Shown one piece after another: positions 1-24,425 of a stretch of 39,706 nucleotides of DNA (position 1 is its first letter; each line of letters starts with the position of its first letter). The DNA comes from Terriglobales bacterium (lineage in GTDB: Bacteria; Acidobacteriota; Terriglobia; Terriglobales; Acidobacteriaceae), in NCBI GenBank assembly GCA_035457425.1, contig DATIBR010000006.1, positions 1 to 39,706 on the forward strand, written 5' to 3'. The notes under the pieces were generated by a model. That model ran no database searches. It was not told the origin of the DNA and saw only the letters and a list, made by a program, of their open reading frames with translations. The translations under genes were made by a program, and so were the position numbers.

Positions 1-158
1 CTGAATGCATATAAGCGGGAAACACTCCCCAAGATGAGATCTCCCAACCCGTAAGGGTCAAGAAGGGCACAGGAAGACCACCTGTTTAATAGGCTGGAAG
101 TGGAAGCGCCGTAAGGCGTGCAGCTTACCAGTACTAATCGCTCGTTCGGCTTGACCAT
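1..158 (+). rRNA. rrl: 23S ribosomal RNA, 3' end (partial)
   Basis: The first 158 bases match the conserved end of bacterial 23S rRNA: the helix region with GCGGGAAAC and GATGAGATCTCCC, and the terminal block ending in GTACTAATCG followed by CGGCTTGACC. The 5' part lies before the window. The mature 3' end is estimated at about 158 by comparison with the usual GGCTTAACC-type end and could be off by a few bases. A 5S gene follows about 210 nt later on the same strand, as expected of an rRNA operon. Confidence 0.93.
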
Positions 159-371: not shown

Positions 372-490
<119 letters not shown>

Positions 491-20522: not shown

Positions 20523-21365
20523 ATGCGCCTTCCTTGGCTAGCAGTGGTACTTCTACTCGTCGCGAGCGCCGCTGCCGAGCGGCCTCGCCGCGCCGTCTGG
20601 GTGTGGGACAACTCCGTCACCGAGACCCCCGCCCAGCGCGACGCCTTCCTCAAGTTCTGCCGCGAGCGCAACATCGACACCCTCTTCCTGCACGCGCCCA
20701 TGGATCACCTGCAGGACCGCCCCGACGAGTTCCACGCCTTCCTCGCTGCCGCGCACCGGCAGAAGATGCGCGTCGAGGCGCTCGACGGGAACGCGCGCTG
20801 GGCCTTCGAACACGCCGGCGCCGAGAACTTCGTCACCGCGGTGAAGGTGTTCAACTCGTTCGCCAGGACTCCGCAGGAGCGCTTCGACGGCATCCACCTC
20901 GACGCCGAGCCCTACGACACCCCGGAGTGGAAGCAGGACGAGCAGCGCGCCGCGGTGCTGTATCTCGAGATGCTCGACGCCCTGCGCGCGCAGAAGGGCG
21001 ACCTGCCGCTCACGGCCGACGTCCCGCCCTGGTTCGGGGAGTTCAAGATCGCGGAAGGCACGCTGCTCTCGGGCGCCATCGCGCGCACCGACGCGGTCGC
21101 GCTCATGTCCTACACCAACCAGGTGCGCGGCCTCGCCGCCGAGGTTAAGCCGGCGCTCGAGTTCGCCGCCACGAAAGGGAAGCGCGTCTGGATCGGCCTG
21201 AGCGTGCAGGCCTACGACTCCGACATGGACGCCACCAAGCCGCTGCGCCCGCAGGTCGAGCGCACGCTCAAGCGCGCCGAGAAGCAGTTCGGCAAACAGC
21301 CCGCGCTCGCCGGCATCGCCCTGCACGACTTCGGGCACCTGCGCTCTCTCTACGACAAACGCTAG
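20523..21365 (+). CDS. Secreted TIM-barrel, glycosidase-like protein
   Basis: A 280-residue protein with a signal peptide (residues 1-18, ending SAAA). The rest looks like a TIM barrel: strands such as RAVWVWD, IDTLFLHAP, RVEALDG, GIHLDAEP (123-130), LPLTADVP, AVALMSY and VWIGLSV alternate with helices. D127 and E129 in HLDAEPYD sit at a barrel-strand end where glycoside hydrolases carry acids, and D206-type residues later may join. I do not recognise a specific family, so glycan cleavage is an inference. The ATG is the first in frame after the palindrome; there is no clear Shine-Dalgarno site. Confidence 0.75.
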   Translation: MRLPWLAVVLLLVASAAAERPRRAVWVWDNSVTETPAQRDAFLKFCRERNIDTLFLHAPMDHLQDRPDEFHAFLAAAHRQKMRVEALDGNARWAFEHAGAENFVTAVKVFNSFARTPQERFDGIHLDAEPYDTPEWKQDEQRAAVLYLEMLDALRAQKGDLPLTADVPPWFGEFKIAEGTLLSGAIARTDAVALMSYTNQVRGLAAEVKPALEFAATKGKRVWIGLSVQAYDSDMDATKPLRPQVERTLKRAEKQFGKQPALAGIALHDFGHLRSLYDKR

Positions 21366-21399
21366 AATCGATGTGTGGCGCGCTCGCCCTCGAGCGCGC
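21363..21399 (+). promoter_or_regulatory. -10-like TAGAAT and palindrome before the ATP-grasp gene
   Basis: TAGAAT (21363-21368, 5 of 6 to consensus) overlaps the stop of the TIM-barrel gene. It is followed by GCGCGCTCG (21378-21386), CCCT, CGAGCGCGC (21391-21399), a 9-bp hairpin 12 nt before the ATG at 21411. A GTG at 21375 is in frame and 6 nt after the -10, so a leaderless start there is a possible alternative. Confidence 0.45.
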
Positions 21400-21410
21400 G
21401 GACTGACACC

Positions 21411-22706
21411 ATGCCGGCGCCGCACCCATCCCGTGTCCTCTTCCTGACGACCAAGCTCGGGTACCAGACGCGTGCCTTCGTCGCCGCGGCGCAGAAGCTC
21501 GAGCTCGAAGTCGTTTTTGGCAGCGACCGCTGCGGCAAGCTCGAGGACCCGTGGCGCGATCACGCTCTGCCGCTGCACTTCGAGCAGCCCGACGAGGCCG
21601 CGCGCAAGGTGGTGGAGTTTGCGCGCGCGCAGCGCGTCGCCGCCATCGTCGCCATCGGCGACCGCCCCACTCCCACGGCCGCGCGCGCCTGCGCCGCGCT
21701 GGGCTTGCCCTTTCACCCGCCCGAAGCCGCCGACCTCTGCCGCGACAAGCACGCCATGCGCCGGCGCCTGCGCGAGGCCGGCCTGCTCGCGCCGCGCTTC
21801 CAGCGCTTCACCGTCGACTCCGACTCTGCGACCGTGACCGCCGGCATCGCCTCCGCCACCGGATACCCCTGCGTCCTGAAACCGCTCGCGCTCTCCGGCA
21901 GCCGCGGCGTCATCCGCGCCGACTCGCCGCAAGAAGCCGCCGCCGCCTTCGAGCGCATCCGCAAGCTGCTCCGCGATCCCGACATCACGCAACTGCGCGA
22001 GGAGACCAGCGGCTACATCCAGGCGGAGGAGTACATCGGCGGATACGAGGTCGCGCTCGAAGCCGTGGTGGACCGCGGCCGCCCGCACCCGCTCGCGCTG
22101 TTCGACAAGCCCGAGCCGCTCACCGGCCCCTACTTCGAAGAAACGATCTACGTGACGCCGTCGCGCCGCTCGCCCGCCGAGCAGACCGCCATCGTCCGCA
22201 CGCTCGAGCAGTGCGTCGCCGCGCTCGGGTTGAAGCACGGCCCCGTCCATGCCGAGTTCCGGCTGAACGAGCGCGGGGTATGGCCGCTCGAAGTCGCGGC
22301 GCGCCCTATCGGCGGCCTCTGCGCCGCGACCCTGCGCTTCAAGCTGCCGCTGGTCGAGGAAGAGATGTCGCTGGAGGAAGTGATCATCCGGCTCGCGCTC
22401 GGGATGGACACCAAGCGCGTCGTCCGCGAGACCGCCGCCAGCGGCGTGATGATGATCCCCATCCCGCGCGGCGGGATATTGGAGGGCGTAGACGGGATCG
22501 AAGACGCGCGCAACGTCGCAGGTATCGAGTCGGTCGAGATCACCGTCCAGCCCGGGCGCAAGCTCGTCCCGCTCCCCGAGGGCGGCAGCTACCTCGGCTT
22601 CATCTTCGCGCGCGGGGAGTCGCCGGATGTTGTGGAGGCCGCGCTGCGCGAGGCGCACGGCAAGCTGCGCTTCAGGATCGCGGAAGAGATCCCTGTCGTC
22701 CGCTAG
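21411..22706 (+). CDS. ATP-grasp ligase with L-amino-acid-ligase-type C-terminal domain
   Basis: A 431-residue protein. An N-terminal Rossmann-like lobe (RVLFLTTKLGY to about 100) precedes an ATP-grasp core: GYPCVLKPLALSGSRGV with the ATP-binding lysine, a lid with YIQAEEYIGGYEVALEAVV, and GPVHAEFRLNERGVWPLEVAARPIGG with the metal-binding Glu/Asn-type residues. The C-terminal ~80 residues (MMIPIPRGGILEGVDG to the end) fit the LAL_C2 domain of L-amino-acid ligases such as BacD/YwfE. The enzyme should couple a carboxylate to an amine via an acyl phosphate; its substrates are unknown. The stop TAG shares the palindromic CTAG (22703-22706) with the stop of the convergent radical SAM gene. Confidence 0.9.
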   Translation: MPAPHPSRVLFLTTKLGYQTRAFVAAAQKLELEVVFGSDRCGKLEDPWRDHALPLHFEQPDEAARKVVEFARAQRVAAIVAIGDRPTPTAARACAALGLPFHPPEAADLCRDKHAMRRRLREAGLLAPRFQRFTVDSDSATVTAGIASATGYPCVLKPLALSGSRGVIRADSPQEAAAAFERIRKLLRDPDITQLREETSGYIQAEEYIGGYEVALEAVVDRGRPHPLALFDKPEPLTGPYFEETIYVTPSRRSPAEQTAIVRTLEQCVAALGLKHGPVHAEFRLNERGVWPLEVAARPIGGLCAATLRFKLPLVEEEMSLEEVIIRLALGMDTKRVVRETAASGVMMIPIPRGGILEGVDGIEDARNVAGIESVEITVQPGRKLVPLPEGGSYLGFIFARGESPDVVEAALREAHGKLRFRIAEEIPVVR

Positions 22707-24112
22707 ATCCCAGCCACCTGGCCGGGCGTGGGTTCCGCTCAACAGTACCAGGGCTCGGTGAGGTACGGGATGGTCGCGCGCGCGGCCAACGGCGGCGGCG
22801 TCCACGCGGGAATCTCCGTAGAAAGATCGCGCACCAGCGCGCACACCGCACCGAACACCTCCGCGCGCGGCGTGTCGTGCTTGCCGATGAGCGCGACCAC
22901 GCCCTCCACCTGCCGCTGCAATTCATCCACCCCGGCATCCGGATGCCGCCACGGATATGCCAGCTTCTCGCGGTCGAACTCGCCCACCCACCCCCGCACT
23001 TCCTCCAACTCCAACAGGCGCGAGCCCGCCGGGATGAGCAGCCGGATGGCCAACTGCACCGGCGCCACGTGCTCGACCAGCTCAAGCTCGGCGAGCGTCT
23101 TCAGCAGGTCCGAATAGACCGCCAGCGTGGTCCACGGCGTGAACGGGATGAACGTGGGCGAGAGCGGCAGCTCCGCCGCGCGCATCAGCTCGACCGCGCG
23201 CAGGAAGTCGGCGCGCGTGTGGCCCTTCTCCAGGCGCGCGAGCACGGCGTCGTCGAGCGACTCGACCGCGCTGGTGACGAACGCGCAGCCGCTCGCCTTC
23301 AGCTCCGGCAGCAACTCCGCGTGCTGGAGCAGGTGCTCGACCTTGATGGTCGCGTCGTACGTGACCTGCGGGAACTCACGATGCAGCGCGCGCACGATCT
23401 CCATCGCGTGCGCCGGGCCGTTGAAGAAGTCGGGATCGCCGAAGGTGATGTGCCCCGCGCCGGCTGCGACCTGCCGCCGCACGTCTTCCAGCACCACCTC
23501 GCGCTGCACCACGCGGAACGCGCCCTGGTAGACGTTCACCACCGGACAGTGCCGGCACAAGTGCTTGCAGCCGCGGCTCGCCTCCGTGTAGCCGACGGTG
23601 CGCAGCGTTCCGTCCGTCATGCGCAACTGCGCATACTCGCCCAGCGGCGGCAGCCCCGCGCGGTCGGGCACGCGAAAACTCAGCCGCGCGAGAGAAACGA
23701 ATCCATCGGCGGAGCGCTCATGTCCCGCCGGCAGGGGCGCAGGCGTCTCGTCCGCGCCGTTCGCCAGCCTCAGCAACTCGCCTTCGAACTCCCCGCCGAC
23801 GATCGCCGTGACTCCCGCCGCCCGCAGCCGCTCCGCATTCAGCGGCGCGTAGAGCCCGTAGGCGCATAGCCGCGCCCGCGGGTTCAACTCCCGCACGCGC
23901 GCGATGACCGGCAGCGCCAGCCGCGTCGCCGTGTGCATCGGCAGGTAGAAGCACGCCAGCTCCGCCGCGCGCACCGCCCCCTCGTCGAGCTTCTGGCGCG
24001 CGAGGTCGAGCTGCGTGACTTGGTGCCCCGCCTCGCGCAGCCAGGCCGCAGGCGAGGCCAGCCCAAAAGGCTGCCGGCCGAGCTCGTAGGTCGAGATGAG
24101 GAGGACGCGCAT
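22703..24112 (-). CDS. Radical SAM selenoprotein with CUAEP tail (TGA at 22741-22739 read as Sec)
   Basis: A 469-residue protein when the TGA at 22741-22739 is read as selenocysteine. Residues 1-125 look like a B12-binding-type Rossmann domain; the radical SAM domain follows with C182-x3-C186-x2-C189 (GCKHLCRHCP) for the 4Fe-4S cluster. The frame reaches TEPWYC, then TGA, then codons for Ala, Glu, Pro and eight more residues to TAG: C457-U458-A459-E460-P461. I recall a radical SAM family named for a CUAEP/CCAEP tail, which this fits. A SECIS-like hairpin follows the TGA (22726-22709). Conventional calling would end the gene at 22739, giving 457 residues. A 10-bp palindrome lies 5 nt before the start, and the YggX gene is 31 nt upstream. 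Substrate unknown. Confidence 0.85.
22709..22726 (-). promoter_or_regulatory. Candidate bacterial SECIS element
   Basis: On the minus strand, 13-30 nt after the TGA: CCCGGCC, loop AGGT, GGCTGGG. The seven pairs include one G-U. The loop occupies bases 20-23 after UGA; in E. coli fdhF, as I recall the sequence, AGGU occupies 18-21. The G-U in the loop is the part SelB reads. A rival fold using CCCA with TGGG exists but looks weaker. Confidence 0.75.
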
Positions 24113-24143: not shown

Positions 24144-24425
24144 TCACTGCTTCTGCTGCGGCGGGACGTAATCCGGCGGGAGCACGGCGCCCTCGCCGAA
24201 GAAGAACTGCTCCATGTGGTGGATGATGATCTCCTGCGCCTTCTTGTCGGCGGGATTCAGGCGGTACTCGTTGATGACCATCTTGGCGTGCTCGCCCCAC
24301 AGCCGCCACGCCTCCGCCGACACCTGTTCGTAGATCTTCTGCCCCAGTTCGGTGTCGAACGGCGGCTCGTCCAGTCCCGGCATCTCTTTGCCGAACTTGA
24401 CGCACTTCACCATGCGCTGTGCCAT
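24144..24425 (-). CDS. yggX: Fe(2+)-trafficking / oxidative damage protection protein YggX
   Basis: A 93-residue protein of the YggX family, small cytoplasmic proteins linked to iron handling and protection of iron-sulfur clusters. Visible signs: VKCVKFGKEMPGLDEPPF at the start with the conserved Cys, GQKIYEQVSAEAWRLWGEHAKMVINEYRLNPAD in the middle and HHMEQFFFGEG near the end. The ATG at 24425 is preferred to an upstream frame start because AGGAG lies 8 nt before it and the family starts here. It lies upstream of the radical SAM gene on the same strand, which also needs an iron-sulfur cluster; this may be a functional link or chance. Confidence 0.95.
   Translation of the reverse strand: MAQRMVKCVKFGKEMPGLDEPPFDTELGQKIYEQVSAEAWRLWGEHAKMVINEYRLNPADKKAQEIIIHHMEQFFFGEGAVLPPDYVPPQQKQ

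Follow-up and report, generated by a model that had tools for sequence, protein, structure and literature searches.

A CUAEP-tail radical SAM selenoprotein and its near-obligate ATP-grasp ligase partner in a Terriglobales genome

We analyzed a stretch of 39,706 nucleotides from a Terriglobales bacterium (contig DATIBR010000006.1, positions 1 to 39,706; hereafter the window), in which a minus-strand radical SAM gene with an in-frame TGA lies between a convergent ATP-grasp gene and a gene for a YggX-type protein. The features on which the analysis draws are as follows.

22703-24112, minus strand: CUAEP-tail radical SAM selenoprotein gene, 469 aa with Sec458, matching NF040546
22739-22741, minus strand: in-frame TGA read as Sec458, directly after Cys457 (22742-22744); homologs carry TGA or TGC/TGT at this site
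22706-22738, minus strand: post-Sec tail codons, AEP followed by TPGQVAGI; AEP is kept in Sec and Cys forms
22709-22726, minus strand: SECIS-like hairpin with a 7 bp stem (CCCGGCC/GGCUGGG) and an AGGU loop (22716-22719), called from its constant position and covarying pairs across 83 distinct Sec homologs
23546-23569, minus strand: radical SAM CX3CX2C motif with Cys182, Cys186 and Cys189, from a 55-sequence alignment and the PF04055 match
23285-23287, minus strand: Cys276, candidate third soft ligand, invariant in the CUAEP family and Leu or Val in ArsL
21375-22706, plus strand: ATP-grasp L-amino-acid-ligase-like protein, the convergent partner (PF13535; PF18603, LAL_C2)
24144-24422, minus strand: YggX-type Fe(2+) trafficking/oxidative damage protection protein, 31 nt upstream of the selenoprotein gene

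A sequence-only reading had placed the radical SAM gene at 22703-24112 and left its strand unstated; the coordinates hold, and the gene runs on the minus strand from 24112 to 22703. Its mechanical open reading frame stops at 22739. Translation with TGA as U yields a C-terminus of TEPWYC-U458-AEPTPGQVAGI followed by TAG, which agrees with the Cys-TGA, Ala-Glu-Pro, eight further codons and TAG described in that reading. With the Sec reading, this TAG and the stop of the convergent ATP-grasp gene share a CTAG palindrome (22703-22706). The ligase partner and the YggX neighbour had not figured in the sequence-only reading.

The radical SAM family with a CUAEP or CCAEP tail that the sequence-only reading had named does exist, as NF040546 ("CUAEP/CCAEP-tail radical SAM (seleno)protein", NCBIfam), and the protein belongs to it with 653.5 bits against a cut-off of 500. 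The alignment spans residues 3-467 of the protein and positions 1-467 of the 468 in the profile, and the family hallmarks are all present (full-length score, C457-U458-A-E-P tail, and CX3CX2C at C182/C186/C189). NCBIfam thus already records the family, and that its members can be selenoproteins, under a name that assigns no function. No paper naming CUAEP, CCAEP, RCCLKC or NF040546 was found in the literature searched, and an earlier description in the Haft selenoprotein-family papers is possible.

The host genome (3.1 Mb, 96% complete) encodes the full selenocysteine machinery that had been proposed as a check on the TGA, comprising selA (563 bits), selB (337 bits, over the cut-off), selD (373 bits) and a tRNA-Sec whose anticodon is TCA. 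The host SelD is a selenoprotein too, with an in-frame TGA at EAAKAAG-U-ASKLS. The homolog set held 110 loci from Acidobacteriota, Methylomirabilota, Chloroflexota, Latescibacterota, Tectomicrobia and other records. The frame could be followed through the site in 108 of these, the window's own copy among them, and two loci show no tail. All 108 readable loci continue past the site, with Cys-Sec in 86 (window copy counted) and Cys-Cys in 22, then [A/S]-E-P. Neither outcome that the sequence-only reading had named as refuting (a genome lacking the selenocysteine machinery, or homologs all ending at the Cys) was thus observed. A-E-P was found in 80 of the 83 distinct Cys-Sec sequences and in all 21 distinct Cys-Cys sequences, the remaining three having S-E-P. 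On a tree built without the tail columns, Sec and Cys switched about 13 times. Gene callers do lose the motif, as had been anticipated: the deposited protein of Thermomicrobium roseum (WP_012643191.1; type strain DSM 5159) is annotated to end at the Cys of SWFC, although TGA-GCG-GAG-CCG comes next, which illustrates how annotation can drop the tail. SelB scored over the cut-off in 44 of 52 genomes, and the tail state tracked its presence loosely and not significantly (Fisher p 0.26). The five Cys-only genomes without SelB all fit (5/5). Three Sec-form genomes lacked a full SelB match, and in one of them (L068) SelB is split by a contig end. SelB presence was dropped as stand-alone evidence for the Sec/Cys state.

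The minimum free energy of the window hairpin did not differ from that of shuffles (z near 0) in this single sequence, which by itself would fit a true stop at the TGA. Because single-sequence energies were uninformative, a comparative test was needed, and we used 500 shuffles of codons within each codon column, which keep the encoded residues of every column. At least five of six pairs formed in 82 of 83 distinct Sec sequences, whereas the shuffles averaged 44 and never exceeded 54. In the Sec forms the AGNU loop starts at nucleotide 23 counting from the U of UGA and reads AGUU (60/83) or AGGU (20/83) in distinct sequences, above a stem that has six or seven base pairs and takes either of two registers. 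Compensatory changes were evident (e.g., positions 21-29: GC 42, TA 11, CG 7), and the hairpin was retained in 7 of the 21 distinct Cys forms. The position of Gln465, whose CAG lies at the hairpin loop, is Gln in 81/83 Sec forms vs 15/21 Cys forms. A-E-P is kept in both Sec and Cys forms, unlike this Gln, and is therefore a feature of the protein, while the residues after it have probably been shaped in part by the RNA hairpin.

Readthrough at the TGA is well supported by these comparisons, and the selenocysteine reading, as first proposed, is as good as sequence evidence gets, combining tail conservation, Sec/Cys interchange, hairpin covariation and genome machinery. The alternative that the TGA is a true stop, with the downstream A-E-P a chance occurrence or a relic, runs against the conservation, covariation and repeated Sec/Cys interchange over 108 homologs and against the complete machinery, and we regard its probability as next to negligible. 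Homolog tails, hairpin covariation and the Sec/Cys changes on the tree led us to reject the TGA as a true stop or an artefact. Taken jointly, the family identity and the Sec decoding appear nearly certain.

The AlphaFold2 model (51 sequences) was predicted with a pLDDT of 91 and a pTM of 0.90, the last six residues falling below 50. Full-length fold matches were obtained with AprD4 (Z 27), MgmA (25), OxsB (25) and TsrM (25), and MiaB and RimO were also among the matches. The N-terminal B12-type domain suggested earlier is thus borne out as a fold. Across an alignment of 55 sequences, C182, C186, C189, C276 and C457 never vary, and position 458 is Sec or Cys in 54 of them, the sole gap being the T. 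roseum gene as deposited, which ends at the TGA. The two-domain fold, together with weaker NCBIfam matches to the B12/radical SAM families HpnR and PhpK (far below their cut-offs), speaks for a cobalamin-dependent radical SAM methylase or rearranging enzyme, the kind of reaction that the sequence-only reading had suggested. However, Radical_SAM was the sole Pfam match at E<=0.001, with no B12-binding family detected; AprD4, which has the most similar fold, acts as a diol dehydratase and, to our knowledge, does not use cobalamin; and B12 goes unmentioned in the paper on the related ArsL (PMC8552651), for which a 3-amino-3-carboxypropyl transfer is predicted instead. We therefore consider cobalamin-dependent catalysis improbable.

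We further examined the convergent partner, whose domain scores exceed their cut-offs (ATP-grasp_4, 99 bits vs 27; LAL_C2, 63.2 vs 29.4) and whose closest PDB structure is the L-amino acid ligase BL00235 (E 5.5e-38). In 63 of 109 loci no more than 1.1 kb separates the ligase gene from the CUAEP gene, in four arrangements (upstream or downstream, on either strand), and where the two are not adjacent, a ligase copy occurs elsewhere in 30 of 31 genomes. Using a match threshold of E<=1e-20, the ligase was detected in 28/28 genomes with a CUAEP gene vs 0/50 near-complete Acidobacteriota genomes without one (Fisher p 8e-22, not corrected for relatedness). Even a single genus shows both states, G245 having the CUAEP gene and the ligase, and G143 neither. 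The ligase is thus an almost obligate partner of the CUAEP gene, a pairing for which no report was found in the literature searched. Stops in some matches raised the possibility that the ATP-grasp gene is a second selenoprotein, which was rejected on an alignment with no stop inside the core. Because the ligase travels with the CUAEP gene in nearly every genome tested, the pair suggests the making of an unusual amino-acid product.

By sequence, ArsL is the nearest CHARACTERISED relative of the protein, and the nearest to have been experimentally characterised. ArsL proteins are 31-34% identical to it across roughly 400 aa (E 1e-55 to 1e-70), and the Cys-Cys of their R-C-C-L-K-C tail aligns under the Cys-Sec. 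ArsL alone, expressed in E. coli, converts As(III) to hydroxyarsinothricin, i.e., 2-amino-4-(dihydroxyarsinoyl)butanoate, and its predicted chemistry is 3-amino-3-carboxypropyl transfer from SAM (PMC8552651), a route that was itself predicted from the product. ATP-grasp genes whose LAL_C2 match is weak are also present at some ArsL loci (Alicyclobacillus, Priestia). No arsenic gene lies next to the window gene or among the recurrent neighbours of the CUAEP loci scanned, unlike the situation at ArsL loci, so arsenic itself is a doubtful substrate; we rejected it in that role and kept it as an analogy only.

By sequence, the TGA is decoded as Sec by the genome's own SelA, SelB, SelD and tRNA-Sec, aided by the hairpin just 3' of the codon, and the enzyme has a dedicated ATP-grasp ligase beside it. 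In the mechanism proposed here, a [4Fe-4S] cluster on Cys182/186/189 would cleave SAM. The group used would be 3-amino-3-carboxypropyl rather than 5'-deoxyadenosyl, as in ArsL, an assignment by homology only. Cys457-Sec458, possibly with Cys276, may hold a soft (thiophilic or selenophilic) atom near the active site that would receive this group to give an unusual amino acid, which the ATP-grasp ligase would then couple to another amino acid. Against this stand the missing recurrent arsenic neighbours, an ArsL profile score of 281 against 450 and the different tails (AEP vs LKC), and the iron-related neighbours described below point equally to a second cluster. As a whole (soft atom at the Cys-Sec tail, ArsL-type chemistry, ligase acting on the product), the mechanism is the best of the readings considered and is offered by analogy as a tentative working model, possible but with the balance somewhat against it.

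Genes for iron and Fe-S proteins accompany the family. Neighbours were taken from targeted searches and Pfam scans, all-against-all clustering having been swamped by shadow ORFs. The YggX gene probably forms one operon with the selenoprotein gene, and 37 of 109 homologous loci have YggX no farther than 4.5 kb away. In another clade, NifU/Nfu-domain proteins recur next to the gene and account for 11 of the 61 neighbour proteins scanned, and glutathione-S-transferase-like proteins account for five. These neighbours, Nfu in one clade and YggX in the other, are the main support for an auxiliary cluster, in which Cys276, Cys457 and Sec458 would bind a second [4Fe-4S], with Sec as an unusual ligand, that either relays electrons or is consumed for its sulfur, as happens in lipoyl synthase, with Nfu restoring it or YggX supplying iron. 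The three invariant Cys/Sec positions beyond CX3CX2C (C276, C457 and U/C458) and the fold matches to MiaB and RimO are consistent with such a cluster. Regeneration of a sacrificed cluster has a precedent in NfuA, which restores that of lipoyl synthase (PMC9585516). However, the two residues of a tandem Cys-Sec are poorly placed to ligate the same cluster, and the protein has no conventional auxiliary-cluster motif. ArsL has no Cys276 equivalent and is considered to carry a single cluster (PMC8552651). We regard a second cluster as a serious candidate, although an unlikely one.

The pair could instead act in redox chemistry, one of the roles put forward in the sequence-only reading, with Cys457-Sec458 cycling between a selenenylsulfide and the thiol/selenol form to pass electrons or to protect or reduce an intermediate. 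Redox activity is known for adjacent Cys-Sec pairs in other proteins, the site takes either Sec or Cys, as is seen in redox selenoproteins, and the oxidative-damage protein YggX adjoins. On the other hand, the conserved Trp-[Tyr/Phe] before the pair and Ala-Glu-Pro after it suggest a fixed binding role, and ArsL, which handles As(III), retains its tail Cys-Cys. A redox tail seems quite unlikely.

The ligase partner and the kinship with ArsL give testable predictions for a family named by its tail only. The soft-atom mechanism predicts that the product is an amino-acid-like compound derived from SAM and joined by the ligase to another amino acid, and that the Cys-Sec pair is required to bind a soft atom or cluster. 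If true, selenium would here serve in the functional C-terminal tail of a radical SAM enzyme. More broadly, Acidobacteriota and several other phyla may possess a selenium-dependent two-enzyme pathway. From SAM, the Cys-Sec radical SAM enzyme would make a novel amino acid of the carbon-metalloid or carbon-chalcogen type, and the dedicated ligase would convert it to a peptide-like metabolite with a link to iron or Fe-S homeostasis, a picture that is speculative and, in its entirety, doubtful. Beyond the NCBIfam record, the present analysis contributes the near-obligate ligase partner, comparative evidence for the SECIS and a concrete proposal for the mechanism.

Among known systems, AprD4, MgmA, TsrM and OxsB match the fold of both domains along most of their length (Z 25-27) at 15-18% identity; their known substrates differ, and those examined have no Cys-Sec tail. 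Lipoyl synthase with NfuA combines a radical SAM enzyme with an Fe-S carrier, much as CUAEP genes of one clade have Nfu genes beside them; its sequence and cluster motifs differ, and there is no evidence of sulfur insertion here. ArsL (NF040542) is alike through both domains, the CX3CX2C motif and an adjacent C-terminal Cys pair, but the window protein scores 281.4 bits, under the cut-off of 450, has WYCUAEP in place of the CCLKC tail and Cys276 in place of Leu or Val, and ars genes were seen at the ArsL loci viewed and at none of the CUAEP loci scanned. By score, tail and neighbours, the protein is not ArsL. The partner has ATP-grasp_4 and LAL_C2 in common with the L-amino acid ligases BL00235 and BacD, and differs in being encoded alongside a radical SAM selenoprotein. 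The closest correspondence is with NF040546 itself, to which the protein gives a full-length match with the same Sec tail and no excluding difference.

Across genomes, the genes for CUAEP-tail radical SAM proteins have a near-obligate companion, a gene resembling ATP-grasp L-amino-acid ligases, which in the window shares a CTAG palindrome with the selenoprotein gene (22703-24112, minus strand), common to the stop codons of both. The surrounding features of the window are as follows:

1-158, plus strand, 23S rRNA gene (3' end), at the edge of the window
373-489, plus strand, 5S rRNA gene, likewise at this edge
20523-21365, plus strand, protein of 280 aa whose N terminus resembles a signal sequence, encoded immediately upstream of the ATP-grasp gene
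21375-22706, plus strand, ATP-grasp L-amino-acid-ligase-like gene
24144-24422, minus strand, YggX (Fe2+ trafficking), immediately upstream of the selenoprotein gene

For the 280-aa protein, a Pfam search (E ≤ 0.001) returned no match and no counterpart was found in related loci. YggX lies near the CUAEP gene at 37 loci. In a second Acidobacteriota clade (L135-L151) the CUAEP gene is accompanied by genes for Nfu/NifU-domain Fe-S carriers and, at several of these loci, also by glutathione-S-transferase-like genes.

Within the window's own genome, selD (locus L010, C127:38678-39604) also carries an in-frame TGA, in the context ...EAAKAAG-U-ASKLS, and its product is a second selenoprotein beside the CUAEP protein. 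The deposited Thermomicrobium roseum DSM 5159 protein WP_012643191.1 (L132:5935-7440, plasmid NC_011961.1) ends at Cys, which is followed in the DNA by TGA and then GCG GAG CCG; the annotation thus lacks its name-giving CUAEP tail.

Four Cys-Cys forms (L056, L059, L077, and L130) come from genomes without a SelB match above the cut-off. Their tails are short (e.g., CCAEPAPQV-stop) and pass straight into the ATP-grasp gene, as if released from the constraint of the SECIS-like hairpin. Plasmids of Alicyclobacillus and Priestia bear ArsL-type loci (L133 and L134) in which an ATP-grasp gene adjoins a small gene of the carboxymuconolactone-decarboxylase family. This arrangement hints at possible ligation of arsinothricin-like amino acids there too.
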